This document shows, one piece after another, positions 8,354-32,053 of a stretch of DNA of 35,910 nt. Numbering within the stretch: position 1 is the stretch's first letter; the number at the start of each line of letters is the position of its first letter. The position numbers and the translations under genes were made by a program. Origin of the DNA: a virus; the IMG/VR virus record IMGVR_UViG_3300046535_001464, positions 1-35,910 of that record; one strand, 5' to 3'. Under the pieces are notes generated by a model. That model was not told where the DNA came from. It made no database searches and saw nothing but the letters and a program-made list of their open reading frames with translations.

Positions 8354-8393
8354 GCACCCGTCTAAGATGATTTCATCTTTCCGAGACGGGTGC
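8354..8393 (+). promoter_or_regulatory. Strong hairpin overlapping the portal start
   Basis: The arms GCACCCGTCT (8354-8363) and AGACGGGTGC (8384-8393) are perfect inverses. Inside them AAGATGA (8364-8370) pairs with TCATCTT (8373-8379), leaving a 4-base bulge (TCCG). The GTG start at 8390 is inside the right arm. No T-run follows, so this looks less like an intrinsic terminator than a structure that hides the start codon or ends the upstream message in another way. A weak promoter-like pair (TTGCCA 8339-8344, TCTAAG 8361-8366) overlaps it. Confidence 0.65.
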
Positions 8394-11300
8394 GTTCCTT
8401 GTTCGACGGATCGTTTTCCCTCGTTGGCGGCACCGGCCTACCCACAATCCAGGCCACCGTAGACGCGCCGCCCGTCTCGACCGCACCAACCGCTGAAAAA
8501 GGGATGCGCGGGGCCGGCGGCTACGGCATCTGGTCCGCCGCCCTGCTCGCCGGCTTGCGGGCCAACGCGCCAGGTGCCTGGTCGGCAAATCGCCTGAACC
8601 AAGCGAACCATTTCATCGGGGTTGCGTTCACAGCGATCTCGGCCATGTGCGACGGCGTCTCGTCGGCCACGCTGGAAGTGACCGATCTGGACGCGGAAGA
8701 AGAAATTCGCTCGCACATTCACGTTCAAAAGTCGATCTCGCACACCAATCGCGAAGGCGTGCGGGTGCCTTTCGACCACGAGCTGGTCCAGTTACTCGAA
8801 GACCCGAATCCGGGCGACACGTTCCAAGACCTACTCTACGAAACAACCCTCCAGCTTTGTCTAACAGGAAACTGTCTGACCTGGATGGTCCCCAATCGCC
8901 TGGGCCTGCCGTCGGAACTCTACGTTATCCCGACCGCACTGGCCCAGCCGGTCCCGTACTCGCAGGCGTGGCCGCGTGGGGCGTGGCGGATCACCCCGCT
9001 CTACCCCTATGGCCCGTTCGCGGTCATTCCGACGCCGGTGGCCACGGCCGGTGCGGTGGTCCCGAACGAAGACATCCTGCACATCAAGCGGAAACACCCG
9101 CTTCTGCGTTGGGACGGCTATTCGCCTCTGACGGCCGGCGCGCGGCAGATGGACATCTTGGACATGATCGACGACGCCCGGTGGGCGGCGTTCGAGTCTG
9201 GCATCAACCCGTCCATCGTGTTCGAGATCGACGCCCAGAAGGCCGGCTCGAACTTCAACCAGGACCAGCTCGACAAGTTCCAGGCCAAACTGAACGAGAA
9301 ATACTCGGCGACCAAGAATTTCGGCAAGGGGATGATCCTGGCCCCAGGCGTTTCCGCCCACCCCTATTCCACGGCCCCGGTTGACATGGCGTTCGACGGC
9401 GGCTGGGAGCAGATGCGGGACTTCGTCCTCTCTCTCTTCGGCGTCCCCAAGGGCCTGGTCGGCATCACCGAGGCGACCTCTTACGCCGCGCTCTACGCCG
9501 CCCTGAAGCAGTTCTATCTCATCAAGCTGAAGCCGGAAGCGGACCGTATCGCCGCGCAGTGGACGAAGTTCCTAGCCCGCCGCTTCAGCCGCTCAATCCG
9601 TATCAGTCTCCCCCTGCCGGCCCTGGATGATCCGAACCTGCTGGAATCCCAGCTCTCGAACGACGACAAGATTGGGATGAGAACGGTGGACGAGCGCCGG
9701 GCGATGCGTGGCCTTCAGCCGTTTGGCGACGAGCGGGGCGAAAAGCTGGTCGGCGGCGGCGAATCGGGCGCGTTCGGCGACGAACCCAACCCGATGGCCG
9801 CGGACCCGGACAACACTGGCGGCACCAACTCGCACCCGAAGACCACGGCGACGCCCGTCACCGACCGCCGCGACGAGGCCGACAACAATCGGCCGGACAA
9901 CGAGGCCGGCCGGCACTCTTTGCCCGGCATGGCCGGCAAGAAGTCGTACCGGAAAGCGTCCACCACTCAATTCAACCTTTGGGGCGACGCGCTCACTCGC
10001 GTCCAGGCCATCGGCAAGCGAATCGACCCGGCCGACCTGATCGAACTCACAAACCTCAGTCACATTACCGTCTGCTACGGCCTCCAGGCCGACGCTGCGG
10101 CTCTGGCCGATGCCGTTCGCGGGTTTGGGCCTGTGACTGTTCGTCTTGGTGCGGTCACGGTATTCGAGAACAACGGCAATCCAACCTCTGTCGCCAGCCC
10201 TGATGCCCCGGTTCAGATTGAGCCGAATCCGTGCGACATTTTGAAGGTCGATGTTCATTCCGACAGCCTGATGGAACTCAATCGCCTGTTGCGAGACAAA
10301 TTCCCATACAACGATCAATATGAATTTAGTCCTCACGTTTCGATAGCCAAAATCATCCCTGGCCTCGGCGAAATCTACGCCGGTTCCATCGAGCTGTCGG
10401 ATATCGAATTGACCTTCACGCACTTCCTTCTGCTCAGTCAGGACGGCCACGCCTCAATCATCCCGCTCGCCGCACCCCGTCTGGCGGTCCAGAAGGCTAT
10501 CGCCCACAAAAACGGCAAGACCAAAACTCTTCTGCCGACCGACGATCTGACGCCGCCGCCCGGCACCCGGCCGCGTCGTCGCAAGATGGACTACCCGCCC
10601 CCTAACGCCAAACCATACCCGCCATCGTCTTCGCCGCTGCCGCCACCGTCCCCAGAAGGCACGGCCCAGGAACTTTCGTCGCCGTTCTGGTCACCGACCG
10701 AATTCGAGTGGAAGCTGTTCCAGCAGTGGGCACTGGCTTTAGACTCGAACCAGTTTCCGTCCGTCCACAACCTAGCCCAACTCGGCTGGGCAAAGAACCC
10801 GGCCCTGGTTTCGGCCGAACTCATGGGCGGCATGGGCGCTCACCACGTCGTTTCGACGGCCCTTGAAGCGGCGATCTACGGCCTCATCGACCTGTGCGAA
10901 GCCAACGGCAACGCTCACTCGGTCTATGTGACGCCCGGCCCCGGTGACAATCCTGGTCCAGCGCTGGTGACGGACCAAAAGGCGTACCGTCCACGTCGCC
11001 GCAAGACCACCAAAGACGATTCGGGTCACGAACACGACACCGGCACCGGCCAGTTCTCAACAACCGATACGTCGCCTTCGCCCGACGGCAGCGAATCTGC
11101 GCCAGCATCGCCGCCGCCATCCGACTCGCCGAAAGACTTGCATCAGTCGAAGTACGCCGCCGCCGAAACGGCGTGGAACGAATGGGAGACCCGCAGCGAA
11201 GATCGGCGCAAAATTCGCGACGAAGTCGAGGAGACCGATCCGTCTTCAGACGGCATTTTGAGCGCAGACGACGCGGACCTGATCGTCGGAGATTTTCAGA

Positions 11301-13348
11301 ATTTTAATTCTGATATCAGGGATTCTCTGTCGTCTGTGGTGGCGGACCCGGTGGAGGCGCAAGCGGATTACGACGAAAAGCTGGCCCATTACCAGCAACA
11401 GCAGGCTCGCGGCGGCGTGTCGCCGAATCAGTTGGCGATGGACGAACACATGATGAATCACGCGAAGATCGTCCTTCGCGAGTCGCTCGATTACGAGTCC
11501 ACGAAAGCCGATTTGAAGTCGCCAAACGACCTCGCCAATTCGCTCGTTGTTCCGGCACGCGAGAAATTTGCGGCGACGGTTGAAAAACTTCGCTCTCTCG
11601 GCGCGAACGATGGCGAGATTGGCAAGGTCCAAGCCGCCGTCCAGAAGTTCGACGAAACTGTCACTCGCGGGTCTGCCGCCTACATTGCGTCTGCGGAAAA
11701 ACTCAAAGCAGCCCGCGACGCTTTCGACGAGGCGTCCAAAGCCTATTCCGACGCGGAAGCCGCCGAGCCGCAGGAGCCTATCGACGCCGGGCCTCCAGAA
11801 GAGCCGGACGACCCGGTTTATCCGCCCGACGTGATCGCTCCGGAGTCGCCGCCAGAGCTAAATTCAAACGACTATGGGACGGCCGAGGAATACGAGCAGG
11901 CCAAGGCGGACCGAGAAGCGAAGATCGAACAAAGCTGGGCCGAACACGACGCCCAGGCGGCAGAATGGGACACGGCCTCCGCCAAAATCGAATCCGATTA
12001 CAAAGAGAAAGTGGCGGCGTGGGAGTCGCAGATAGCTGAAGGAGATACCGCCTTTACGTCCGCGGTCGCAGCATACGAGAAGGATTACGCGAGATGGGAA
12101 AAGAATATTCCCAAACTGGAAGCGGCCAAAAACAAAGCCGAGGACCGCCTCAGTAAAGAAGGCGACCGGTTCGACGACGTGTCTGAGAAGTTTGTGAATG
12201 ACTTTTACAGTCGCCGAGACAAAGTGGAAGACGCCTACAAGTCGTCTCTCGATGCCATTTCGTCTCGTCTCGACGCGGCAGACGAGGCCGATCCGGAGCC
12301 GGACCTTCCAGAAGAGCCAGAACACACCAAGGCCGTCAACCACATCTGGGCCGGCTACAACCCTAGCCGACAGAAGACCGTCAAAGACTCGTCCGGACAC
12401 GAACACGACGAGGGGACGGGCCAGTTTTCGACCACCGACACTGGAAAGCACGGCGAGTCCGATTCTCCAGCCGGCGGCGATAATTCCAAAGGCTCTTCCG
12501 AGTCGTTCAAAGCCGATTCCGCCAAACTCCTGGAACAGCTGAATGAGACGGGCGACCACGAAATGGTCCTGGCCCATCTTGATAACGCCTTCACCGACGC
12601 CACCGACCGCGCCGAGCATCAAGTAGACGGCGTGGAAGATCACTATCTCGACCATTGGGCGCACACTCGCTCGCCGGCCGTGATCGAACGCTCGTCCGAA
12701 CTTCTCGATCAGTTCTACGACAACAACCGGTCGGACCTGGCCGACCTCCAACAACACTATGAAACCTATTATAACGCTGTCGCGGACGCGATTGAATCGC
12801 ATCGGGAACTCGGCGAAGTCGGCGAAGAGGAGCAAGACGCCTTGTCTACTGCGTCCGACAACCTCACGGCCGCGTCCGCAAAACTTCGCGACGAGATGGT
12901 CACGAATGCGCGACGAGTAGAGAAGGAAATGGACGTCACGGAAGCCGAGGTGAAACGCGAGTGGCTGGACACGGCCGCAGCCAACGCGGAAATCCTAAAC
13001 GAAAACTATCCCGACGACCCGCAAGGGGCCGAGGAGGATGCGGCTAGCTATAACACCGAGCTTGAAGAGGCTGGAAACCCGTACCGGCTCACGAAAGACG
13101 AGTCCGGCCAATGGTGGTTTGACGAGATCGAAGACGAGCCGCGGCGAAAATCCCTGCCGCCGAAAAAGCCGTTCCCGGCGACCCGCCTCATGTCCATTTT
13201 GCGGCGCAAGTACAACTTGTCGCCGGCCGTTCGCCGTGCCGCCATTAACCCGAACCTGCTCGCGGGCGGCTTGGGAACGCCCAAACGGATCGAGATCGAC
13301 CGCGGGGCCGACGGTCTCATCAAAGGCTACAATATCTCTGGAACCTAA
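8390..13348 (+). CDS. Giant portal fusion: HK97-type portal + 2H phosphoesterase + coiled coils
   Basis: A 1652-residue uninterrupted frame; portals usually have 400-550 residues. Residues ~60-450 are an HK97-type portal, with YSQAWPRGAWRI, DILHIKRKHPLLRWDGYSPL, GVPKGLVGI and the closing TVDERRAMRGLQPFG. Residues ~530-690 form a LigT/2H phosphoesterase domain with both signatures, HIT (558-560) and HVS (649-651), 91 residues apart. Then come a Pro-rich linker (~720-760), a helical segment, long acidic coiled coils (~910-1320 and ~1370-1580) and a basic C-terminus. The motif GHEHD-GTGQFSTTDT occurs twice (~879, ~1336). GTG 8390 lies in a hairpin; TTG 8399 is an alternative start. It may be processed by the prohead protease. 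Confidence 0.92.
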   Translation: MRSLFDGSFSLVGGTGLPTIQATVDAPPVSTAPTAEKGMRGAGGYGIWSAALLAGLRANAPGAWSANRLNQANHFIGVAFTAISAMCDGVSSATLEVTDLDAEEEIRSHIHVQKSISHTNREGVRVPFDHELVQLLEDPNPGDTFQDLLYETTLQLCLTGNCLTWMVPNRLGLPSELYVIPTALAQPVPYSQAWPRGAWRITPLYPYGPFAVIPTPVATAGAVVPNEDILHIKRKHPLLRWDGYSPLTAGARQMDILDMIDDARWAAFESGINPSIVFEIDAQKAGSNFNQDQLDKFQAKLNEKYSATKNFGKGMILAPGVSAHPYSTAPVDMAFDGGWEQMRDFVLSLFGVPKGLVGITEATSYAALYAALKQFYLIKLKPEADRIAAQWTKFLARRFSRSIRISLPLPALDDPNLLESQLSNDDKIGMRTVDERRAMRGLQPFGDERGEKLVGGGESGAFGDEPNPMAADPDNTGGTNSHPKTTATPVTDRRDEADNNRPDNEAGRHSLPGMAGKKSYRKASTTQFNLWGDALTRVQAIGKRIDPADLIELTNLSHITVCYGLQADAAALADAVRGFGPVTVRLGAVTVFENNGNPTSVASPDAPVQIEPNPCDILKVDVHSDSLMELNRLLRDKFPYNDQYEFSPHVSIAKIIPGLGEIYAGSIELSDIELTFTHFLLLSQDGHASIIPLAAPRLAVQKAIAHKNGKTKTLLPTDDLTPPPGTRPRRRKMDYPPPNAKPYPPSSSPLPPPSPEGTAQELSSPFWSPTEFEWKLFQQWALALDSNQFPSVHNLAQLGWAKNPALVSAELMGGMGAHHVVSTALEAAIYGLIDLCEANGNAHSVYVTPGPGDNPGPALVTDQKAYRPRRRKTTKDDSGHEHDTGTGQFSTTDTSPSPDGSESAPASPPPSDSPKDLHQSKYAAAETAWNEWETRSEDRRKIRDEVEETDPSSDGILSADDADLIVGDFQNFNSDIRDSLSSVVADPVEAQADYDEKLAHYQQQQARGGVSPNQLAMDEHMMNHAKIVLRESLDYESTKADLKSPNDLANSLVVPAREKFAATVEKLRSLGANDGEIGKVQAAVQKFDETVTRGSAAYIASAEKLKAARDAFDEASKAYSDAEAAEPQEPIDAGPPEEPDDPVYPPDVIAPESPPELNSNDYGTAEEYEQAKADREAKIEQSWAEHDAQAAEWDTASAKIESDYKEKVAAWESQIAEGDTAFTSAVAAYEKDYARWEKNIPKLEAAKNKAEDRLSKEGDRFDDVSEKFVNDFYSRRDKVEDAYKSSLDAISSRLDAADEADPEPDLPEEPEHTKAVNHIWAGYNPSRQKTVKDSSGHEHDEGTGQFSTTDTGKHGESDSPAGGDNSKGSSESFKADSAKLLEQLNETGDHEMVLAHLDNAFTDATDRAEHQVDGVEDHYLDHWAHTRSPAVIERSSELLDQFYDNNRSDLADLQQHYETYYNAVADAIESHRELGEVGEEEQDALSTASDNLTAASAKLRDEMVTNARRVEKEMDVTEAEVKREWLDTAAANAEILNENYPDDPQGAEEDAASYNTELEEAGNPYRLTKDESGQWWFDEIEDEPRRKSLPPKKPFPATRLMSILRRKYNLSPAVRRAAINPNLLAGGLGTPKRIEIDRGADGLIKGYNISGT

Positions 13349-16346: not shown

Positions 16347-16916
16347 ATGCCAAACATCACCAATCCTGAAGCCCTGAAGTACCTGAACGAGTCGATCCGC
16401 CCCGGATGCAACCGACTCGGGAAGATGTATTACCTGGTCGATGGAGTTCGTGATCGCTGGGCAGGGCTGGCTGGAACAACAGCTCAGAAGAAGGCGATCA
16501 TGTTTCAGGACATCCACGACGCGGCCGACGCGGCTCGCGATTCGTTTCGTTGGACGTTCGACCGGGAGCAGCTCTGGTTCCTTGGAGTCAACACGATCAT
16601 CACGGACACGGCCGACCTGATCGCCGACGGACGCACTGACGTGATACCAGTGACCGGGGCGCAAGCTAACAGAGGCATCGACCGATTCCGGCAGTTCAAC
16701 AACGAGATGCGAACAGGGGACTTCGACTCGTTCGCGGCCGGCAACTACGCGACGTTCAACCAGGTACTGGTTGTTTGCACCGATGGACCGCTTGCATTCC
16801 TAGACTCTGACGTGGTGAACTTCATCAACCTCTGCTCTACGATTGCGAACCGATACGAAGCAGCCTCTAACTCCGAATTGAACACCATCCTCGCCCTTGC
16901 AACTAACCCGCACTAA
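16347..16916 (+). CDS. Unknown phage protein (189 aa)
   Basis: ATG 16347, with AGGAG just after the previous stop (about 16338-16342). Largely helical: KYLNESIRPGCNRLGKMYYL, then KKAIMFQDIHDAADAARDSF and an N/F-rich part NNEMRTGDFDSFAAGNYATF. No signal peptide, membrane segment or known motif is seen. It lies between the lyase and the beta-helix protein and ends with a one-base overlap (TAATG), so it probably serves the same adsorption structure. It could be a chaperone or adaptor for the fibre proteins; this is a guess from position only. Confidence 0.7.
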   Translation: MPNITNPEALKYLNESIRPGCNRLGKMYYLVDGVRDRWAGLAGTTAQKKAIMFQDIHDAADAARDSFRWTFDREQLWFLGVNTIITDTADLIADGRTDVIPVTGAQANRGIDRFRQFNNEMRTGDFDSFAAGNYATFNQVLVVCTDGPLAFLDSDVVNFINLCSTIANRYEAASNSELNTILALATNPH

Positions 16917-18316
16917 TGGCATACACCGAATTCTATGTCCAAACGACGGCAGACAACCTCAATGCGGGGTCCACGACCGCCGACGGTGCGGTTTACACCG
17001 GCGTCGGCGATTCGGACGGCACTTCAGTCTTCACCCCGAGCGACGGCAGCACTCCGGCCAGCACGGTCAATGCTGGTGACTTCGGCTCAGTTTATGTGAC
17101 CATCGGCGCGACCGTCGCTGTGTTTGTTGGCCGCGTTACAGTGGTTGCGCCAGGCGTCAACGGAGCGATCACGTTCTCGACGACCGCCAAGAGTGGGACG
17201 TTCCCGGCCGCGTCTGCTGGGGCGCACACGATTACTTGCAAGACTGGTGGAGCGTGGAAGGGACCGAACGGGGCGGTGCAGTTCCCGATCAACTTTGTCG
17301 CCGCTGCCATGACGGACGTAGCGGCCGATGTGCCAAGAGTCAACTTCAAGACTGGAGTGACTTACAGCATCACAGCGGCGATGTCCCATATTCCCGCTGG
17401 CCCATGTCGGTTCCAAGGATACACAGCAAGCCCTGGTGACGGCGGCAAAGCAATCATCGACGGCGGCACGTCGGGAACGAGCTACGTCTTATACTCCACC
17501 AGCGGCCTCAACGTGGACTTTGAGGACTTCATCTTTCAGAACAACGGGGCTACAGGAAGTGCCTCCGGTGTAGCGCTAGGCAACCATGAATTCTTCTTCC
17601 GCGGTGTTGTGGTACATGATGTCAGGGGGAACGGGATTGCAATATCTGGAACTGGAGTTTTAGTAGAGGCAGAAATATACAACGCGAATCAGTCCGCCGC
17701 CGGCACTGGCGGATTGAACCAGACTGGCGGTTCGGCTCGGCGTGTAACCATACACGACAACACTGGAACTGGAATCACCATTTCCGGTGGTGCGATTCAC
17801 AAGTGTATCATAGACACCAATACTGGTGTGGGAATTCAGGTTAACAACGTTGGAGTTCAAGAGATTACCGACACGGACGTTTACAACAGCGGCAGCGACG
17901 GGATCAAGCTGTCAGGATCTAATTCAGCAGTATTCATAGAGAACTGCAATCTCGTCAAGAACAACGGCTGGGGCATCAACGGGGCTGGAGTAGGTCACAA
18001 CGGAACGGTCACGAATTGCGGGTTCGGCTCTGGTACTCAAGCGAACGCTTCCGGCGCAACGACGGCGCTCTCTGGGATGCTCGAAACCGGAAGCGTCACT
18101 TACGCCAGCGGAGTCACGCCCTGGGTCGATCCGGCAAACGGCGACTTCAGGATTAGTCTGGCGGCGGCGAAGGGTGCTGGTCGCGGCGTATATACAGAAA
18201 CCGCCGCAAGCTATTCTGGCACGGTTGGCTTCCCGGACATTGGAGCGGCACAGCATCTTGATACTGACGGCGGCGGCGGCAGCGCTCTCATGTTCCTTGC
18301 GGTGAGGCAGTCATGA
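16916..18316 (+). CDS. Right-handed parallel beta-helix protein, probable tail spike or fibre
   Basis: A 466-residue protein. Residues ~185-400 show the repeated G/N/I ladder of a pectate-lyase-like right-handed beta-helix, e.g. RGNGIAISGTGV, DNTGTGITISGGAIHKCIID, NTGVGIQVNNV, SGSDGIKLSGSNSAV and KNNGWGINGAG. The N-terminal ~170 residues form a head domain (FYVQTTADNLNAGSTTADGA). Such proteins trimerise as spikes or depolymerases. I see no clear catalytic Asp/Glu pair, so activity is uncertain. Bases ~17480-18000 are visibly richer in A/T than the flanks, which may mark exchange of the receptor-binding part. Confidence 0.82.
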   Translation: MAYTEFYVQTTADNLNAGSTTADGAVYTGVGDSDGTSVFTPSDGSTPASTVNAGDFGSVYVTIGATVAVFVGRVTVVAPGVNGAITFSTTAKSGTFPAASAGAHTITCKTGGAWKGPNGAVQFPINFVAAAMTDVAADVPRVNFKTGVTYSITAAMSHIPAGPCRFQGYTASPGDGGKAIIDGGTSGTSYVLYSTSGLNVDFEDFIFQNNGATGSASGVALGNHEFFFRGVVVHDVRGNGIAISGTGVLVEAEIYNANQSAAGTGGLNQTGGSARRVTIHDNTGTGITISGGAIHKCIIDTNTGVGIQVNNVGVQEITDTDVYNSGSDGIKLSGSNSAVFIENCNLVKNNGWGINGAGVGHNGTVTNCGFGSGTQANASGATTALSGMLETGSVTYASGVTPWVDPANGDFRISLAAAKGAGRGVYTETAASYSGTVGFPDIGAAQHLDTDGGGGSALMFLAVRQS

Positions 18317-18528
18317 TTTCTCTGTCCACGGCCCCCGATACGCCGCCGAACCACGTCATCGTCCGGTTCGGGTCCGGCATCCCAGCCGATCTTCAATCCA
18401 TTTCCATGCTTAGAATGGAGAAGTTGCTGCGCGAACTCGGCGTCGCCGCAGAAGTCTATAAAGAGACCGCGCCGGACGACAGCCGGCTGCGGCGGAGCAT
18501 GACCAAGGAGCAGCGTGACAAGCTATGA
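18313..18528 (+). CDS. Small hypothetical phage protein (71 aa)
   Basis: ATGA overlaps on both sides. Sequence pattern: NHVIVRFGSGIPADLQSIS, a helix MLRMEKLLRELGV, then a charged C-terminus MTKEQRDKL. Soluble and without cysteines. It sits directly before a radical SAM enzyme, but lacks features of a modified precursor peptide. No function is recognised. Confidence 0.65.
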   Translation: MISLSTAPDTPPNHVIVRFGSGIPADLQSISMLRMEKLLRELGVAAEVYKETAPDDSRLRRSMTKEQRDKL

Positions 18529-19640
18529 GCGACCTGCAAGACTTCACCGACAATCTCATTCTCGACGGCACTAAAGTTGGCTGGCACGGGGACCGCATCG
18601 CCGCGTGGCAGCGGGGCGAACGCATTGCGCCCATCACCATCGACTGCTCGATGACTCGCCAGTGTAACGCCGCCTGCTCGTTTTGCTACGCCTCTCTACA
18701 AGCCTCGGAAGGCGGACAGATTACCAAGGAAAACTTCTTCAACTTTCTTTCCGACGCGGCCGAGATCGGCGTGAAGGGCGTCAGCTTCATTTCCGACGGC
18801 GAATCGACGGTCGTGCCCTGGTACGCGGACGCGGTCGAGTACGGCCACTCGCTCGGTCTCGCTATTGGGGCCGGCTCCAACGGGATCAAGCTCACCAAGC
18901 CCGTTCTGGAACGCATCCTGCCCTGTCTAACTTACCTCCGTTTTAACTTCTCGGCTGGAGATCGCAAGCGGTACGCCGAGATCATGGGCGTACCATCTCA
19001 TTTCTACGACGATGTGATCCAGAACATCACCGACGCGATGGCCATCGTTCGCCGGGACAGTCTTTCGGTCAACGTGAACATGCAGCTGGTCTGCGACCCG
19101 CGCGATGGCGACCAAATCATCCCGTTCGCCGAGCTGGCCTGCTCCCTGCGTCCCCATTACGCCATCATCAAACACTGTGCCGACTCGGTGGACCACGCCC
19201 TCGGCGTGGACTATTCGCGCTACGCGGCCCTCGAAGCCGATTTTCATCGGGCCGAAGAGATCGGCCGGCTCTCTGGCGTCCGAGTGACCGTGAAATGGTC
19301 GCGCTTGGACGGGAAACGCACTTACTCGCGGTGCATGGGTCCGCCGTTCCTGCTGCAAATCTCCGGCAACGGCACCGTAGCCTCGTGCGGGTTTCACTTC
19401 AATGAGAAGTACAAGAAATTCCATCTAGGTTCGATCTGCGAGACCCGCTTCAAGGATATTTGGAATTCCGACTACTATTGGGAGGCGGTCCGCTACCTGA
19501 ACAGCGATGAGTTCGACCCGCGCGAGCGCTGTGGTCCAAATTGTCTTCAACATAATACTAATGACTTCCTGTTCAAATACGTCAACGGCCGGGTCACGCT
19601 GCCAACCACGCCGGCTCCCGCTCACTCGGAGTTCATTTGA
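18525..19640 (+). CDS. Radical SAM enzyme with SPASM-like C-terminus
   Basis: A 371-residue protein. The cluster motif is CNAACSFCYA (C47, C51, C54), binding a 4Fe-4S cluster that cleaves S-adenosylmethionine. FISDGEST and GAGSNGIKL fit the SAM-binding strands of the partial TIM barrel. The C-terminal part has further cysteines (RCMGPPFLL, VASCGFHF, SICETRFKDIW, RCGPNC), with the 'G-C-x(n)-G-I-W' layout of SPASM auxiliary-cluster domains. SPASM enzymes modify peptides or small molecules such as aminoglycosides. Here the next gene encodes a nucleotidyltransferase, suggesting sugar-like chemistry (inference). Coupled by ATGA and TTGA overlaps to its neighbours. Confidence 0.88.
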   Translation: MSDLQDFTDNLILDGTKVGWHGDRIAAWQRGERIAPITIDCSMTRQCNAACSFCYASLQASEGGQITKENFFNFLSDAAEIGVKGVSFISDGESTVVPWYADAVEYGHSLGLAIGAGSNGIKLTKPVLERILPCLTYLRFNFSAGDRKRYAEIMGVPSHFYDDVIQNITDAMAIVRRDSLSVNVNMQLVCDPRDGDQIIPFAELACSLRPHYAIIKHCADSVDHALGVDYSRYAALEADFHRAEEIGRLSGVRVTVKWSRLDGKRTYSRCMGPPFLLQISGNGTVASCGFHFNEKYKKFHLGSICETRFKDIWNSDYYWEAVRYLNSDEFDPRERCGPNCLQHNTNDFLFKYVNGRVTLPTTPAPAHSEFI

Positions 19641-20101
19641 AAATCCACTCGCTGGCTCTTCTCTCTCTGATCTCGTCCGAACTTCGCTCGGACGGCTCGC
19701 GGATCGTGCTGGCCCACGGCTGTTTTGACGTGCCGCATGTCGGCCACGCCCGCCATCTGCAAGCTGCCAAGCGCCTGGGTGATGTCTTGATCGTGACCAT
19801 CACGTCGGACGCGCATGTCGCCAAGGGGCCGGACCGCCCGGCGTTCCCGGCCGTTCTTCGGTGCGAGGCTATCGCCGCCATGTCCTGCGTGGACTACGTC
19901 GCGATTTGCGACTCGCCGACCGCCGCTATCGCCATCCAGGCCATCCGGCCGCACATCTACGTCAAAGGTCCGGAGGCTCTCTCCTCGCCGTCGCCGGGCC
20001 TGCTTGCGGAAATCGCGATGGTGCGAGAAATTGGGAGCGAAATCGCATACACTGACGACGTAGTGTTCTCGTCCACCGAAATTCTGCGTCGGCTGGGGTA
20101 A
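19637..20101 (+). CDS. HxGH nucleotidyltransferase (cytidylyltransferase / RfaE2-like)
   Basis: A 154-residue single-domain enzyme. AHGCFDVPHVGHARHL (~26-41) holds the HxGH motif (H34-H37). Later come PAVLRCEAIAAMSCVDYV, PHIYVKGPE and FSSTEILRRL, as in glycerol-3-phosphate cytidylyltransferase and the nucleotidyltransferase half of heptose-phosphate adenylyltransferase. It would join a nucleotide to a phosphorylated sugar or polyol; CTP or ATP cannot be told apart by eye. TTG 19637 is the start, overlapping the radical SAM stop, so the two are coupled. It probably supplies the activated donor for the glycosyltransferases downstream (inference). Confidence 0.88.
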   Translation: MKIHSLALLSLISSELRSDGSRIVLAHGCFDVPHVGHARHLQAAKRLGDVLIVTITSDAHVAKGPDRPAFPAVLRCEAIAAMSCVDYVAICDSPTAAIAIQAIRPHIYVKGPEALSSPSPGLLAEIAMVREIGSEIAYTDDVVFSSTEILRRLG

Positions 20102-20103
20102 TT

Positions 20104-22977
20104 ATGGCCAACGTCCCCGTAAACCCTACCGCTTCCTACACCGTCGGCGCGGAAGTGATCGGCGGCATCGACTACCAGCTTGTGAAGCTGGTGGGCGGGC
20201 AGGCCGGCTCGACCCAGCCGATCCCTGGCGATTCCACGCTCGGTCTGGGCGTGCAGGTTCTTAACGTCCCGCAAGTCGGCGTGTCGTCCATGCCGGCCGT
20301 TTCCGGCACCGTCACCGTCGCAACCGGAACCGTCACCGTCGCGGGTGGCTCCCTGAACGTTGTTTCGACCGTCGCGGCGATCCTCGGTTCGGTTCTCATC
20401 TCCGGAACCGTGTCCGTTTCCGGCGCGGCCGGCGGCGGCGTGACCACGACCGCTCCGCCGTCGATCTCCGCGGCCGGCCAGGTGATGTGGATCGCGGGCG
20501 GACAATCAACCACCGCCTTTCCCGTGGTCGTCACCGGAACAGTCACCGCTGGCGCTGGGACCACCGTTGTTTCCATCGGCAACGTGGTTCCTGTCACCAC
20601 TGCCGCCTCTGTCTCAGTCACCGGCCTGCCGGTCTGGCTCAATCCGACCCAGCAAGTTGTCGTCTCCGGCCTAGCTGGGCAGTCGGTTTCGGCTGTTGTC
20701 AGCGGCACTGTGTCCGTTCTCAACGTCGTTCCAATCACCACGGCCGCATCAGTCTCGGTCACGGGCCTTCCTGTATGGCTTAATCCCACCCAGCAGGTGG
20801 TCGTTTCCGGTCTAGTTGGTCACTCCATCACCGGCTCGGTCAATATCGTCTCGACCGTGACCGTGACCGGCTCGGTCGGCATCTCGAACATGCCAGCGGT
20901 GTCCATCTCTGGCATCGTGCCGGTGACAACCGCCGCTTCTGTCTCCGTCACTGGCCTTCCCGTCTGGTTGAACCCGACTCAATCGGTCAACATCGGCTCC
21001 ATCGCCTCCACGGTGAACGTCGCCATTGTGGCGGGTGCCGGCGGCGGCGGGTCTGTGACTACAGCCTCTCCCTCAATCTCGGCCACGGGCCAGGTGATGT
21101 GGCTGGCAGGTGGCCAATCGACTACGGCGTCGCCGATCTTCGTGTCGCAGATCAACCCGCCAGCGGGTGGTGGCGGCTCTGTGACCACGGCGGTCCCATC
21201 GGTCTCGGCCACGGGCCAGATCATGTGGATCGTTGGCGGTCAATCGACCACGGCGTTCCCCGTTGTTGTGACCGGGACTGTGACGGCCGGCGCTGGAACC
21301 ACGGTCGTCTCGATCCAGAACATCGTCGCCGTCACCACCGCGGCTTCCGTCAGCGTCTCCGGCCTCCCTGTGTGGCTAAACCCGACCCAGCAGGTAGTGG
21401 TCAGCGGCTTTGCCGGCCAGTCTGTGTCTGCTGTTGTTTCTGGCACAGTGACAGTCAACGGATCGGTATCTCTTTCCGGCACTGGTCTTGTTTCCGTTGT
21501 CCCTGGCCTGTCGGTTTCGGCCGTCGTCTCCGGGACAATCTCGGTTCTAAACGTGGTCCCTGTGACCACGGCTGCATCAGTCAGCGTTACCGCCCTCCCG
21601 GTCTGGCTTAATCCCACTCAACAAGTGGTGGTTTCTGGCTTCGCGGGCCAATCGGTCTCGGCGGTTGTCTCGGGAACGGTAACAGTCAATGGCTCAGTTT
21701 CTCTATCCGGCACTGGCCTTGTCTCTGTTGTGCCCGGCTTGTCGGTCTCGGCAGTTGTTTCCGGCACCGTGACCGTCTCCGGCTACTCCGTCACCACCGC
21801 CGTCCCCTCTGCGTCCGCCACTGGCGGCGTCATGTGGATCGTGGGCGGACAGTCCACAACCGCTTTCCCGGTCGTTGTCACTGGCACCGTGACCGCTGGG
21901 GCCGGCACGACCGTCGTCAGCATCCAAAACATCGTCGCTGTGACGACGGCTGCATCTGTCTCTGTCTCCGGTCTTCCGGTTTGGCTGAATCCGACTCAGA
22001 CTGTCGCTGTTTCCGGCGCGATTGCTGCTGTCACGACGCAGTCGAACGTGACCGGCGCGCCGATCTGGTTGGCTCCGACGCAGACAATGACGGTCACGGT
22101 CGCAAACGCGCTTTACACGTCCACGGCGGTCACGACTGGAACAGCCCAGGCCGTCTGGATCATGAATCCGACGACGGTCACTGTGACCATCGCCGGGACC
22201 ACCACGGGCACGATTTCTCTGCTTTCCATCGTTCCGGTTACGACCCAGACCTCCGTCAGCGTCTCCGGCATCCCCATCTGGTTCAACCCTGGCGCTTTGG
22301 TCGCTATTTCGGGCGTAGTTCCCGTCACCACCGCGGCTTCCGTGTCGGTTTCGGCGGTTCCTGTCTGGCTGAACCCGACTCAGACGGTGGCTATGTCGGG
22401 CATGGTTTTCACTACAGCGCATCCAGACGTGACCGTAACCGTCCCGGTGATTCGGAACATCCCGTATGGGTCGGTTACAGGCACGGCGCTTTATCAGGAA
22501 CTTCAGGTCAATACGACGGGTCAACTGGTCGTAACCGTGACCGGAGCGCCAGCATTTGTCCCGGTCATGATCCAGGTCTCATCGACCGCCATCGCTCAGT
22601 CTGCGGCGTTCTATGCGATGACGATCTGGACTGGCGGCACGGTGGCTGGAGCAGGGACCACTGCATGGCCGGTCCCGGCCGGAAAGCAGTTTCGGCTCCT
22701 TAATATTCAGGCCGTGATGACAACATCGGCGGCAGTCGGCGGCACCGTCCAGTTCGTCGTCGTTGCGGCCACGGCCACGGCATCAATGAACTCTGCATCC
22801 TTCCGAACCCAGGGGTTCCAGGGTCTCATTCAAGGCGTTGTGACGGCTCTGCCAGTAGCCGTTGGTCCGTTGTTCGTGGAGGCAGACACGCCGGCCGCGA
22901 CCACTATCGGCGTGGCCATTGTCGCATCCACTGCGGCTGTTCTTCAAAATGTGATTGTCCAAGGATACTTGTTCTAA
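20104..22977 (+). CDS. 957-aa Ser/Thr/Val-rich repeat protein, probable virion fibre
   Basis: Almost wholly made of beta-type repeats. One unit reads VTTAASVSVTGLPVWLNPTQ with a following VVVSG, seen about seven times. The other reads SATGQVMW-GGQSTTAFPVV, then VTGTVTAGAGTTVVSI. Two consecutive 77-residue units share a 35-residue identical core. The last ~180 residues (from ~IPYGSVTGTALYQELQ) are non-repetitive and look globular. Such Val/Ser/Thr repeats fit a long trimeric fibre. It lies between a nucleotidyltransferase and an OGT-like transferase and is very rich in Ser/Thr, making it a natural candidate for O-glycosylation (inference). The near-identical protein repeats differ strongly at synonymous positions. 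Confidence 0.85.
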   Translation: MANVPVNPTASYTVGAEVIGGIDYQLVKLVGGQAGSTQPIPGDSTLGLGVQVLNVPQVGVSSMPAVSGTVTVATGTVTVAGGSLNVVSTVAAILGSVLISGTVSVSGAAGGGVTTTAPPSISAAGQVMWIAGGQSTTAFPVVVTGTVTAGAGTTVVSIGNVVPVTTAASVSVTGLPVWLNPTQQVVVSGLAGQSVSAVVSGTVSVLNVVPITTAASVSVTGLPVWLNPTQQVVVSGLVGHSITGSVNIVSTVTVTGSVGISNMPAVSISGIVPVTTAASVSVTGLPVWLNPTQSVNIGSIASTVNVAIVAGAGGGGSVTTASPSISATGQVMWLAGGQSTTASPIFVSQINPPAGGGGSVTTAVPSVSATGQIMWIVGGQSTTAFPVVVTGTVTAGAGTTVVSIQNIVAVTTAASVSVSGLPVWLNPTQQVVVSGFAGQSVSAVVSGTVTVNGSVSLSGTGLVSVVPGLSVSAVVSGTISVLNVVPVTTAASVSVTALPVWLNPTQQVVVSGFAGQSVSAVVSGTVTVNGSVSLSGTGLVSVVPGLSVSAVVSGTVTVSGYSVTTAVPSASATGGVMWIVGGQSTTAFPVVVTGTVTAGAGTTVVSIQNIVAVTTAASVSVSGLPVWLNPTQTVAVSGAIAAVTTQSNVTGAPIWLAPTQTMTVTVANALYTSTAVTTGTAQAVWIMNPTTVTVTIAGTTTGTISLLSIVPVTTQTSVSVSGIPIWFNPGALVAISGVVPVTTAASVSVSAVPVWLNPTQTVAMSGMVFTTAHPDVTVTVPVIRNIPYGSVTGTALYQELQVNTTGQLVVTVTGAPAFVPVMIQVSSTAIAQSAAFYAMTIWTGGTVAGAGTTAWPVPAGKQFRLLNIQAVMTTSAAVGGTVQFVVVAATATASMNSASFRTQGFQGLIQGVVTALPVAVGPLFVEADTPAATTIGVAIVASTAAVLQNVIVQGYLF

Positions 22978-22987
22978 CGGAGCATAG

Positions 22988-24706
22988 ATGGCTCAGGCAT
23001 ACGTTATTTGCCCGGCTCAGGGCAGCGATCAGGCGGACGAGTGGGTGCGGCTCGGGGTGGATTCGCAAGTTTCTTCAAACACGTCTCCCGACGTCGCTGC
23101 ACGCAATTCCAAGCTGGCCGAGGCGCAGGCTCGCTATCAGCAAGCCCTTCGCCTGGACCCGCGGCACGCAATTGCGACGATGAATCTCGCCATCGTGTTC
23201 GCGCAGTCGAATCTTCTCAACGAGGCCATGCTCACCATCGAGCGGGCGGAGATGTTCGACGGCGTCCATAGCATCATCCCCATGAACCGGGCGATGATGG
23301 CCTTAGAGTCGGATCGTATCGACGAGGCACTCACCTGCGCCCGTCGCGCCGTCGTTCTGGCTCCGAAAGAGGTGCCGGCCCTGCTCACCCTGGCCCAAGT
23401 TCTGGCCACGGCCGGCCTCGCTCATGAAGCGGTGCCGCTCTACAATCAGATTCTCGACCTGGACCCGAAGCATCCGACCGCAGCGGTGAACGCCTGCTTC
23501 GTCCAAACGCTCACGTCTGCGTCTCCCGCTGCCCTTCTCGCTCAGCGCAAGCGGTGGTACGAGGTCAATCGCCATCCCGTCGCCTTCGCCCCGCACCTGA
23601 ACGACCATTCTCTGGACCGGCCGCTCCGCATTGGCTATGTCGGGGGCGACTTCAAGCAGCACAGCGCGGCCTTCATCTTCTCGCACGTCCTGCTGCACCA
23701 TACGCCGGCCGTTGAGATGTATCTGTACTCGACGCTGCCTTCCGACCCGGTCGCCGACTACAAGACCAAGCGATTCGTGGACCTGGCCGGCCCACGCTGG
23801 CGGGACATCTCGACTCTCACCGACGAAGCCGCCGACGCTCTTATCCGCAAGGACAAGATCGACATCCTGGTGGACCTTGCGGCCCACACGAACGGTGGCC
23901 GACTGGCGCTCTTCACTCGCAAGCCTGCGCCCGTCCAGGTCTCTGCCTGGGGATTCGCCCACGGGACCGGCGTGCCTGAGATCGACTACTTCTTCGCGGA
24001 CCCGATTGCGGTCCCGGAGCAAGACCGCCAGTTCTACGCCGAGAAGGTCGTCGATTTGCCGTGCATTGTGACGATGGAGCCGCCGACCGAGTACAACCAC
24101 AAGCCGTCGTCGCATCCGCCCATCCGCAAGAACGGCTACATCACGTTCGGCTCTTACGCCCGTTATGAGAAGATGTCCGACGAGTGTCTTCGGTCTTTCG
24201 CCGAGATCATGCAGCGTGTCCCCGAATCGCGGATGACTTTTAAGGACAACGCTTATCGGCGACCCTACAGCCTCCGCCGCATCATGTCCCTAATGCCGAA
24301 CATCGCTCCAGAGCGACTGCTCTTCAGTACGGCCACCAACCACCCCGACCACATGTTGGCCTACCAGCAGTGCGACCTGGCCCTGGACCCGTGGCCGCAC
24401 GGCGGCGGGGTGGTCAGCATGGAACAGCTCTACATGGGCGTCCCGCTTCTGACCCTTTACGGCACCCAGCCGGCGGGCCGCTCGGCGGCGTCCATTCTGG
24501 CGGCGATGAACCGGACCGACTGGATCACGGGCACGCCGGAAGCGTACATTGAGAAGGCGGTCGCCCTGGCCGAAAATCCCAAGCCTTTGGGCGACGCCCG
24601 CAAGACTCTGCGCGACGAATTGCTCAAATCGCCCGTGGTCGCCGGCTACGTCGAAGCGGTCGAAGCCAAGTACCGCGAAATCTGGCGGAAGTGGGTGGAA
24701 TCATGA
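22988..24706 (+). CDS. TPR + OGT-like glycosyltransferase (GT41 family)
   Basis: A 572-residue protein. TPR helices occupy ~43-175 (EAQARYQQALRLDPRHAIAT, LLTLAQVLATAGLAHEAVPL). The catalytic part follows: LRIGYVGGDFKQHSAAF (H225, matching the OGT histidine), KIDILVDLAAHTNGGRLALF, then YITFGSYARYEKMSDECLRS (K395 where OGT has its UDP-contacting lysine) and WPHGGGVVSMEQLYMGVPLL. This is the SPINDLY/O-GlcNAc transferase fold, which transfers a sugar from a nucleotide donor to Ser/Thr of proteins bound by the TPR part. In phage it could act on virion or host proteins. Its position right after a Ser/Thr-rich repeat protein suggests that substrate. It ends in an ATGA overlap. Confidence 0.93.
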   Translation: MAQAYVICPAQGSDQADEWVRLGVDSQVSSNTSPDVAARNSKLAEAQARYQQALRLDPRHAIATMNLAIVFAQSNLLNEAMLTIERAEMFDGVHSIIPMNRAMMALESDRIDEALTCARRAVVLAPKEVPALLTLAQVLATAGLAHEAVPLYNQILDLDPKHPTAAVNACFVQTLTSASPAALLAQRKRWYEVNRHPVAFAPHLNDHSLDRPLRIGYVGGDFKQHSAAFIFSHVLLHHTPAVEMYLYSTLPSDPVADYKTKRFVDLAGPRWRDISTLTDEAADALIRKDKIDILVDLAAHTNGGRLALFTRKPAPVQVSAWGFAHGTGVPEIDYFFADPIAVPEQDRQFYAEKVVDLPCIVTMEPPTEYNHKPSSHPPIRKNGYITFGSYARYEKMSDECLRSFAEIMQRVPESRMTFKDNAYRRPYSLRRIMSLMPNIAPERLLFSTATNHPDHMLAYQQCDLALDPWPHGGGVVSMEQLYMGVPLLTLYGTQPAGRSAASILAAMNRTDWITGTPEAYIEKAVALAENPKPLGDARKTLRDELLKSPVVAGYVEAVEAKYREIWRKWVES

Positions 24707-25287
24707 CCCGCGACACTCTGATCGCCTTCTCGGCTCGCGTCCGCACCGCGTTCCTGGCGAAGCAAATCCGCTCGCCAGTCCACCTCTGCTCGGACACGCA
24801 GGCCCAGCCGCTCATTGAAATCTTCAAGTCCATCCGCCCACAGGATTATGTCTTTGCGACGTGGCGAAACATGTTTCACGCCCTTTTGAAAGGGATTCCA
24901 GAGGATGAACTCTTCGCCCAAATCCTCGAAGGCCGGTCGATGTATATTTCATCAAAGGCCCACAATTTCATGTCCGGCTCTATCGTGGGCGGGATGTTGC
25001 CGATTGCGGCCGGCGTGGCGGCAGGGCTGAAACGGAAAGTCTCAGACGCCAGAGTCCATGTGTTTGTCGGCGATATGGCCGCTTCAGCCGGCTTGTTCCA
25101 TGAATTCGAGCAGTATTGCCAGGGTCATCGCCTTCCGGTCCAGGTGATTGTCGAGAGCAACGGCCTCAGCACAGACACGCCCACGGCCGCGGCGTGGGGC
25201 AACAGCATTCGGTCGCTCCGGATCGACTGGTATCACTACGACCGCACGACGCCGCACGTTGGAGTAGGAGAACATGTCTCATTCTGA
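24703..25287 (+). CDS. Thiamine-diphosphate enzyme, E1-alpha-like half
   Basis: A 194-residue protein with the E1-alpha/transketolase-N pattern: KAHNFMSGSIVGGMLPIAAG, then VFVGDMAASAGLFHEFEQYC and LPVQVIVESNGLSTDTP. The ThDP motif GDG-x26-N is read as GDM (123-125) with N153, so the Mg-binding Asp and Asn are kept while the third Gly is Met. Typical E1-alpha has ~330 residues; this version is short and lacks a peripheral part. The beta-like partner starts inside its 3' end. No E2 or E3 gene is present, so a free decarboxylase, ligase or ketolase-type reaction is likelier than a dehydrogenase complex (inference). Confidence 0.82.
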   Translation: MTRDTLIAFSARVRTAFLAKQIRSPVHLCSDTQAQPLIEIFKSIRPQDYVFATWRNMFHALLKGIPEDELFAQILEGRSMYISSKAHNFMSGSIVGGMLPIAAGVAAGLKRKVSDARVHVFVGDMAASAGLFHEFEQYCQGHRLPVQVIVESNGLSTDTPTAAAWGNSIRSLRIDWYHYDRTTPHVGVGEHVSF

Positions 25288-25789
25288 CGAACTACTGAAC
25301 CAGGCCATGCTCATGCTGGCCCTTAATCCAGCCGCCATCTTCGTAGGCCAGGGCGTGGCCTATGGCGGCGTCGCCACCTACAAGCATCTGACCGGAATTC
25401 CTGACTCGCAACGCCTGGAAATGCCGGTGGCTGAAGACTTCCAGCTCGGATTCTGCACGGGCCTCTCTCTCCAAGGCTTCCTGCCGATCTCAATTTTCCC
25501 TCGCATCGACTTCATGCTTCGAGCCGCCGATCAGCTCGTGAACCACCTGGACAAGCTCGAATTCATGTCGCGCGGCGACTTCAAGCCGCGCGTTATCATT
25601 CGCACCCGCGTCGGCTCGCGCACGCCTCTGGACGCTGGTCCGCAGCATTCTCAGGATCACACCGCTGCATTTTCGCTTATGCTGACTAATATGACCGTGT
25701 ACCGGATAGACGATCCGGCGGAAATCCTCCCGGTCTATCGTGCTGCCGTCGCCGATCCAAGGTCATCTTTGGTCATCGAAGCCTTGTGA
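25274..25789 (+). CDS. Thiamine-diphosphate enzyme, E1-beta-like half (Pyr domain)
   Basis: A 171-residue protein matching the pyrimidine-binding domain: AIFVGQGVAYGGVATYKHLT, then RLEMPVAEDFQLGFCTGLSL with Glu54 at the place of the conserved Glu that activates ThDP. ISIFPRIDFMLRAADQLVNH and VIIRTRVGSRTPLDAGPQHS follow, typical of E1-beta. The C-terminal transketolase-C domain is absent. It overlaps the alpha-like gene by 14 bases, so a one-to-one complex is expected. Together the two could form or cleave a carbon-carbon bond on a keto or sugar substrate. The stop overlaps the next start as GTGA. Confidence 0.82.
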   Translation: MSHSDELLNQAMLMLALNPAAIFVGQGVAYGGVATYKHLTGIPDSQRLEMPVAEDFQLGFCTGLSLQGFLPISIFPRIDFMLRAADQLVNHLDKLEFMSRGDFKPRVIIRTRVGSRTPLDAGPQHSQDHTAAFSLMLTNMTVYRIDDPAEILPVYRAAVADPRSSLVIEAL

Positions 25790-30772: not shown

Positions 30773-32053
30773 ATGAGCAACGAATTCGTCTTTCCGAGCG
30801 ATGTCCCTGGCTGGCTTGAGCCAATTGAGGGCCACGCTCTGGCCGAGGTCGCCCGCAACCGGACGGTCCTTGAAATCGGGTCTTATGCTGGACGCTCGAC
30901 CATCTGCATGGCGCAGACGGCTCTCGCGGTCCACGCCGTTGACCACCACCAGGGCGACGCCGGCACCGGGCCGGCCGACACGCTGGCGGCGTTCACCGAG
31001 AACATCAACCGCTACGGCGTAGCCGGAAAAGTATTTCCATACGTCGGCCGTTCGACGGAAGTCCAGTTGAACGGTACGCTCTTTGACATGGCGTTTATCG
31101 ACGGCGCTCACGACGAGCTTTCCGTCCGCACCGATCTGGCGGTCGCGATGAACCGGCTGAAGCCGGGCGGCGTGATCGCGATGCACGATTGGGACTACCC
31201 AGCCGTGCAATCTGCGGCCCGCATGGTTTTTGGCCGCGAGCTGCTTGGCGAGACCGTTGGCCGGACGCGGTTCTTCAAGCCGAGCCAGCCTTACGTCTTC
31301 GTGGCGGTCCCGTCCCGCGGCACCCTCGCCCCTGGCGTGCTGACGGCGACGCACCAGATGGCCCAGCGGACGCCAGTCTTTACGCTGGCGACCCACGGCT
31401 GTTCGCTGCTGACGATGTCGTTCAACCAGATGTGGGCCGATGCCCTAAACGCCCGCGACAAGGGGATCACCCACTTCTTCATGCACCACGACGATTTGTG
31501 GGCGGAAGACAAGTGGTGGCTGGACACGATGTACGACCAGCTGCAAGCATCTGGCGCGGACATTCTGTCGGCGGTGGTGCCGATCAAGGACGAACGCGGT
31601 CTGTCATCGACCGCCCTCTATCATCCGCCGACGAACAAGATCAAGCGCGTCACCATGACCGACGCGATGAATCTGCCGACGACGTTCACAGCGGCCGACT
31701 GCGGCTACCCTGAGTGCGTGCTGCTGCCGAACACGGGGTTCTGGATTTGCGACTTCACGAAGCCTTGGGTGGAGGAGATTTGCTTCACCATCCGCGACCG
31801 TATTTTCAAAGACCCGGTTGATGGACTCTGGAAAGCCCAATGCTTCTCTGAGGATTGGCATTTCGGGATTCAGGCGTTCAAACTCGGACTCCGGGTTTGC
31901 GCGACGACGGCGGTCAAGATTCGGCATCGTGGCGTCTACGACTACACGAACGCCGAGGCATGGGGCACGGTGAAAGACGATGAAGCGGTGGGCGTCTTTG
32001 CTCCCGCGGACGAACACAACTACATGCCGGAACCAGTGCATGATCCTGATTAG
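30773..32053 (+). CDS. SAM methyltransferase fused to a GT2-like glycosyltransferase domain
   Basis: A 426-residue protein. Residues ~1-180 are a class I methyltransferase: VLEIGSYAGRSTICMAQ (motif I), AVHAVDHHQGD, FDMAFIDGAHDELSV and LKPGGVIAMHDWD, as in the Methyltransf_24 family. Residues ~200-426 form a second domain with a nucleotide-sugar-transferase look: FTLATHGCSLLTMSFNQMWA, THFFMHHDDLWAEDKWWLDT (HDD as possible metal site) and ADILSAVVPIKDERG. A single chain could both transfer and methylate a sugar. It is separated from the other enzymes by the capsid genes. The specificity cannot be read. Confidence 0.82.
   Translation: MSNEFVFPSDVPGWLEPIEGHALAEVARNRTVLEIGSYAGRSTICMAQTALAVHAVDHHQGDAGTGPADTLAAFTENINRYGVAGKVFPYVGRSTEVQLNGTLFDMAFIDGAHDELSVRTDLAVAMNRLKPGGVIAMHDWDYPAVQSAARMVFGRELLGETVGRTRFFKPSQPYVFVAVPSRGTLAPGVLTATHQMAQRTPVFTLATHGCSLLTMSFNQMWADALNARDKGITHFFMHHDDLWAEDKWWLDTMYDQLQASGADILSAVVPIKDERGLSSTALYHPPTNKIKRVTMTDAMNLPTTFTAADCGYPECVLLPNTGFWICDFTKPWVEEICFTIRDRIFKDPVDGLWKAQCFSEDWHFGIQAFKLGLRVCATTAVKIRHRGVYDYTNAEAWGTVKDDEAVGVFAPADEHNYMPEPVHDPD

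Follow-up and report, generated by a model that had tools for sequence, protein, structure and literature searches.

A GT41 glycosyltransferase and a Ser/Thr-rich repeat protein (STR) were found, by sequence comparison, to have been co-transferred between mostly unrelated phages. The cassette in which both are encoded is rather likely to be a phage-encoded protein O-glycosylation module, in which the GT41 would O-glycosylate STR. Gene content, linkage, co-transfer and residue conservation are established. Of the original prediction, an O-glycosylation cassette with its own fibre substrate, the linkage of donor genes and transferase to a Ser/Thr-rich, fibre-like protein stood; the host, the OGT label and the full donor pathway did not.

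Gene content of the cassette

The analysed stretch, referred to as the window, is the 35,910-base IMG/VR virus record IMGVR_UViG_3300046535_001464. Virion genes were located at 4.85 kb (terminase), 8.4 kb (portal) and 26.5–29.3 kb (protease/major head protein), the cassette lying between the portal and the protease/major head protein genes. Its six ORFs are all intact and on the plus strand, with neighbour spacings of −16 to +10 bases:

18525..19640 (+): radical SAM/SPASM enzyme (rSAM), 371 aa; Pfam Radical_SAM and SPASM, CX3CX2C motif CNAACSFC
19637..20101 (+): HldC/RfaE-II-like nucleotidyltransferase (NT), 154 aa; CTP_transf_like, HVGH and SSTEI motifs; TTG start, 4-nt overlap with the rSAM ORF
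20104..22977 (+): S/T/V/G/A repeat protein (STR), 957 aa, proposed to be a fibre of the virion and the acceptor for glycosylation; composition outlier, conserved family, linked to the GT41 clade; 2-nt gap after NT
22510..22977 (+): C-terminal C1q/TNF-like jelly-roll domain of STR, predicted fibre tip; AF2 model and structure comparison
22988..24706 (+): GT41 glycosyltransferase with N-terminal TPRs, SPINDLY-like, 572 aa; PF13844, solved relatives, residue map; 10-nt gap after STR
24691..25287 (+): PP half of a ThDP enzyme (E1-alpha-like; E1a), 198 aa; E1_dh, N-terminal part of phrog_34187, GDM...N motif; 16-nt overlap with the GT41 ORF
25274..25789 (+): PYR half of a ThDP enzyme (E1-beta/transketolase-like; E1b), 171 aa; Transket_pyr, C-terminal part of phrog_34187, alignment; catalytic Glu present (AE motif); 14-nt overlap with E1a

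Matches to Radical_SAM, SPASM, CTP_transf_like, Glyco_transf_41, TPRs, E1_dh and Transket_pyr all exceeded the Pfam gathering scores. The gene set and tight spacing first described from the letters were thereby confirmed, each ORF being intact and in place with its Pfam family and motifs; in the 'split' ThDP enzyme, the PP and PYR halves are separate proteins and the third transketolase domain is missing.

A right-handed beta-helix protein (16916–18316), a candidate tailspike, is encoded immediately 5′ of the cassette. The portal forms approximately the first 500 aa of a 1652-aa ORF (8390–13348), followed by a weak 2′-5′ RNA ligase-like match and a long tail.

Co-transfer of the transferase and the repeat protein

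In a first scan, close relatives of the GT41 were obtained from viral contigs only (16 loci, 43–62% identity), and neither GT41 nor STR relatives were found in the annotated phage genomes searched. Bacterial and archaeal genomes gave distant GT41s only, the best-scoring matches having ≤37% identity and belonging to mixed phyla, so that no link to a host or prophage resulted; the planctomycete host originally assumed was not upheld, since the IMG/VR record names no host and the nearest cellular GT41s are of such mixed origin. In a tree of 92 GT41 sequences, that of the window fell into a virus-only clade of 16 (GT41-A; SH-aLRT 100). An STR-like protein was located nearby in 14 of these 16 and at 1 of 48 distant viral GT41 loci, a contrast somewhat inflated by the many short contigs. 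The two members without STR are L149, with just 1.3 kb of upstream sequence, and L144, an extra GT41 copy in a genome that has STR beside its other one. Apart from these two, the close clade held no loci with GT41 and nucleotidyltransferase but without a Ser/Thr-rich protein, which had been named beforehand as counter-evidence. A homology-free composition test gave STR-like ORFs in 16 of 19 GT41-A contigs (the other 3 being truncated) vs 9 of 95 other contigs.

For comparison of phage backbones, 17 records carrying GT41-A and/or STR were queried with the terminase (TerL), major head protein (MCP) and portal of the window, which matched 1, 4 (three at 35% identity) and 3 records, respectively. 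Despite these mostly unrelated backbones, GT41 is 43–65% identical between records. Gene order varies as well, being rSAM-NT-STR-..-GT41-E1a-E1b in the window, L003 and L054, and STR-GT41-NT-PfkB-SIS-E1a-E1b-rSAM in L005. The main reason to regard GT41 and STR as a functional unit is that the pair stays while the backbone changes and the set persists despite reordering; joint travel between unrelated viruses argues that the two work as a pair.

The description of STR as a Ser/Thr-rich repeat protein was borne out by its composition: S+T amounts to 25.8%, against a median of 10.8% among 735 viral ORFs of ≥300 aa, S+T+V+G+A to 69% and D+E+K+R to 1.3%. The repeats exist at the protein level, the DNA showing one short tandem repeat only. 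Relatives of 365–1855 aa share a conserved C-terminal domain of ~150 aa ending in GYLF, and a scan with the single C-terminal sequence of STR returned 5 loci. The AF2 model of this domain resembled TNF/C1q and further domains at VIA Z 8–10.5, values to be read with a model pLDDT of only 66.7 and a best PDB Foldseek E of 0.009. The top structural match was 4-1BBL (Z 10.5), and the short tail fibre of cyanophage A-1(L), the phi812 spike knob and the F-BclA tip matched as well (Z 8.9–9.4). AF2 modelling of the entire protein (pLDDT 33.8) yielded no stalk fold. Taken together, the site among structural genes, the repetitive stalk and the predicted knob are consistent with STR being a fibre or spike of the virion.

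That the cassette decorates something else, such as a surface glycan or proteins of the host or phage DNA, and that STR is no more than a structural gene next door, is unlikely. Such a role would suit the donor module, which occurs without GT41-A in 37 contigs and is also seen with neither GT41 nor STR, the cyanophage relatives described as LPS clusters (PMC3037559) and the second GT41 of L008, which adjoins a GT2; it is at odds with the tracking of STR by the GT41-A clade over unrelated backbones, and those soluble TPR-GT41s whose function is known act on proteins (PMC9715652).

A Methyltransf_24 protein is encoded in the window at 30773–32053; it may modify the glycan, as L008 has relatives of this protein close to its second GT41. 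In a 96-kb record (L015 and L059; contig 3300047471_000616), a cassette of sugar genes adjoins STR and GT41; this record is probably circularly permuted, since each contig end interrupts STR.

Sugar pocket and donor genes

The GT41 domain was recognized by PF13844 (E 6e-33), with several N-terminal TPR models above cut-off. It had been labelled OGT-like; its best solved relatives are SPINDLY (SPY) structures 7y4i and 8dtf, with OGT behind, and the label was changed to SPINDLY-like. SPINDLY aligned end to end (TPR and GT-B domain, 497 bits), and SPY residues were mapped through this alignment, with roles taken from PMC9715652 and PMC10027727. SPY D491, H495, S496, K665, K689 and E752 are all retained. 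The catalytic H495/K665 correspond to H225/K395 (invariant in 17 sequences), and K689/E752, of which the former contacts guanine and the latter binds ribose (PMC9715652, PMC10027727), to K419/E479 (invariant in 14/14 GT41-A sequences). Residues shaping the fucose site (Y744, T747, I592 and V497; PMC9715652, PMC10027727) are exchanged: Y744→H (H471) and T747→G (G474) in 14/14 GT41-A sequences, I592→W (W321) in 13/14, and V497→A, likewise invariant or nearly so. Thus, the window GT41 resembles SPINDLY, a protein O-fucosyltransferase (7y4i, 8dtf–8dti), in its TPR and GT-B architecture and its catalytic and nucleotide residues, and differs from it in being viral, in having fewer TPRs and an altered pocket, and in an acceptor that is probably one dedicated fibre. 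With the nucleotide contacts kept and the fucose site replaced, the donor is probably a purine-nucleotide sugar other than fucose. The same W/H/G pocket is present in some cellular GT41s, and the pocket therefore does not identify the sugar.

It is not likely that GT41 glycosylates the fibre from an ordinary nucleotide sugar of the host, such as GDP-fucose or UDP-GlcNAc, while the sugar genes next to it have some other function. The nearest solved relative is a GDP-fucose enzyme and its purine-reading K689 is retained, which would agree with such a donor, but none of the SPY fucose contacts Y744, T747 and I592 is conserved, the replacements being invariant or nearly invariant across GT41-A, and donor-module genes are also present in the GT41-A records examined.

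A donor other than these common sugars is suggested by the adjoining genes. The best NCBIfam match of NT was TIGR02199 (96 bits, under its cut-off of 181.5), and it is nearest to RfaE/HldE adenylyltransferase domains. The order NT-PfkB-SIS-E1a-E1b-rSAM recurs in many viral contigs, with PfkB in 14 and SIS in 12 of 18 records. Among solved structures, SIS is nearest to the phosphoheptose isomerase GmhA; the kinase of the sister loci belongs to PfkB, the family of HldA, the specific relationship being weak. NT, PfkB and GmhA-like SIS follow the logic of nucleotide-heptose synthesis, which makes a heptose-type sugar the best guess. PfkB and SIS are absent from the subclade of the window (window, G006, G013, G014), and GmhB was found in 0 of 18 records (TIGR00213; controls detected). 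That the window encodes every step of donor synthesis was ruled out, as it has no isomerase (SIS), PfkB kinase or GmhB; host enzymes or a different substrate would be needed, and ADP-heptose as the product is not secured. The donor-making branch of the original prediction thus held as sugar-nucleotide genes linked to GT41 and STR, though not as a whole pathway in the window, and the 'unusual sugar' gained indirect support from the GmhA-like and PfkB genes of sister cassettes and the changed pocket residues. The probable donor is a purine nucleotide carrying a heptose-type sugar rather than fucose, an assignment held less firmly than the action of GT41 on STR.

The 42 viral relatives of rSAM nearly all adjoin sugar genes, mostly without STR. 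As rSAM follows the sugar genes and not STR, it more likely acts on the sugar, and we consider it probably a sugar-modifying enzyme. Modification of the fibre peptide by the rSAM/SPASM enzyme (RiPP-like crosslinks or epimers), which would make the cassette a dual peptide-modification system, is quite improbable: rSAM is weakly similar to peptide maturases such as SkfB and is encoded 5′ of NT and STR in the window, L003, L054, L021 and L283, but in most contigs it comes after sugar genes where STR is absent.

A coincidental neighbourhood inherited in one phage lineage is very improbable, since TerL, MCP and portal are mostly unrelated between records and the pair persists while gene order is reshuffled, even though all examples are metagenomic and the GT41-A members form one clade.

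The split ThDP pair was detected in at least 278 viral stretches. Many pairs without NT, PfkB and SIS (L060–L134) share a contig with an NAD-dependent epimerase and a DegT-like aminotransferase, which suggests a second phage nucleotide-sugar cassette. A full-length acetolactate-synthase-like ThDP enzyme is encoded directly 5′ of STR in L014 (304–2028), and similar proteins were detected in nine contigs, of which eight also carry the cassette.

Proposed mechanism and relation to known systems

From gene content and residue patterns we infer the donor identity, the role of rSAM, the acceptor identity and the virion location of STR. In the proposed mechanism, the split ThDP enzyme would make or supply a ketose phosphate, from which point a GmhA-like isomerase and a PfkB kinase, encoded in most sister phages and presumably host-supplied for the window, would make an aldose phosphate. 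The HldC-like NT would activate the latter as a purine-nucleotide (ADP-type) heptose-like sugar, and rSAM would alter the sugar. GT41 would then thread the flexible STR stalk through its TPRs and place single sugars onto many Ser/Thr residues before virion assembly, turning a hydrophobic stalk into a hydrated, protected fibre bearing the knob.

The proposed logic resembles that of the BAHT heptosyltransferases TibC/AAH with the autotransporters TibA/AIDA-I, in which a dedicated enzyme hyper-O-glycosylates a repetitive surface protein from an ADP-heptose-type donor (PMC4358343); unlike these, the cassette has no autotransporter. No BAHT/TibC sequence match to GT41 was found among the matches listed, and its alignment columns contain no invariant or nearly invariant cysteine, hence no BAHT four-cysteine iron finger, so that a TibC-type enzyme was ruled out.

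Cyanophages S-SM2 and P-TIM68 carry a related ThDP enzyme, with PP and PYR fused into one protein, and share PfkB-type kinase, NTase and SIS genes with the cassette family, while the sugar cluster of SynMITS9220M01 has a radical SAM protein, as does the cassette. These clusters are much larger, with epimerases and other glycosyltransferases, and no GT41 or S/T repeat protein was found in the phage records searched. A 2010 study described such cyanophage sugar genes as LPS clusters of unknown function (PMC3037559). The donor module alone is therefore not new, and since cyanophages carry related donor genes, the cassette would not be a new category of phage virion glycosylation. In mycobacteriophages, virion glycosylation was already reported (Freeman et al. 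2023, as cited in PMC10568470). The cassette would likewise place glycans on phage virions. The mycobacteriophage system is said to use different glycosyltransferase families and host-type sugars. With BclA-type exosporium fibres, STR shares a repetitive stalk and a predicted C-terminal C1q/TNF-like knob (F-BclA, Z 8.9). The stalk of BclA is O-glycosylated; it is collagen-like (GXX), whereas that of STR is an S/T/V/G/A repeat. In the literature searched, no phage system was found in which a SPINDLY-like GT41 has a dedicated, co-inherited S/T-repeat fibre.

More tentatively, the cassette may be a system mobile among phages and built around a GT41 of the SPINDLY clade that exchanged fucose for a heptose-type sugar on a purine nucleotide, made under phage direction and modified by rSAM; with this sugar, the enzyme would hyper-O-glycosylate its own S/T-repeat fibre, the two co-evolving across unrelated phages. 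If so, phage metabolic genes read as LPS genes or 'stuffer DNA' (PMC3037559) would be linked to virion decoration, the SPINDLY-like GT41 family would gain a dedicated enzyme–substrate pair with a new donor, and a nearly uncharged, hydrophobic, S/T-rich fibre would need sugar for solubility or protection. Host range or escape from defence may be affected by the GT41–STR pair, given that it is passed from one phage to another unrelated one.

Two more S/T-rich proteins (777 and 229 aa), possible extra substrates, are encoded between STR and GT41 in L003 (6844–9866).
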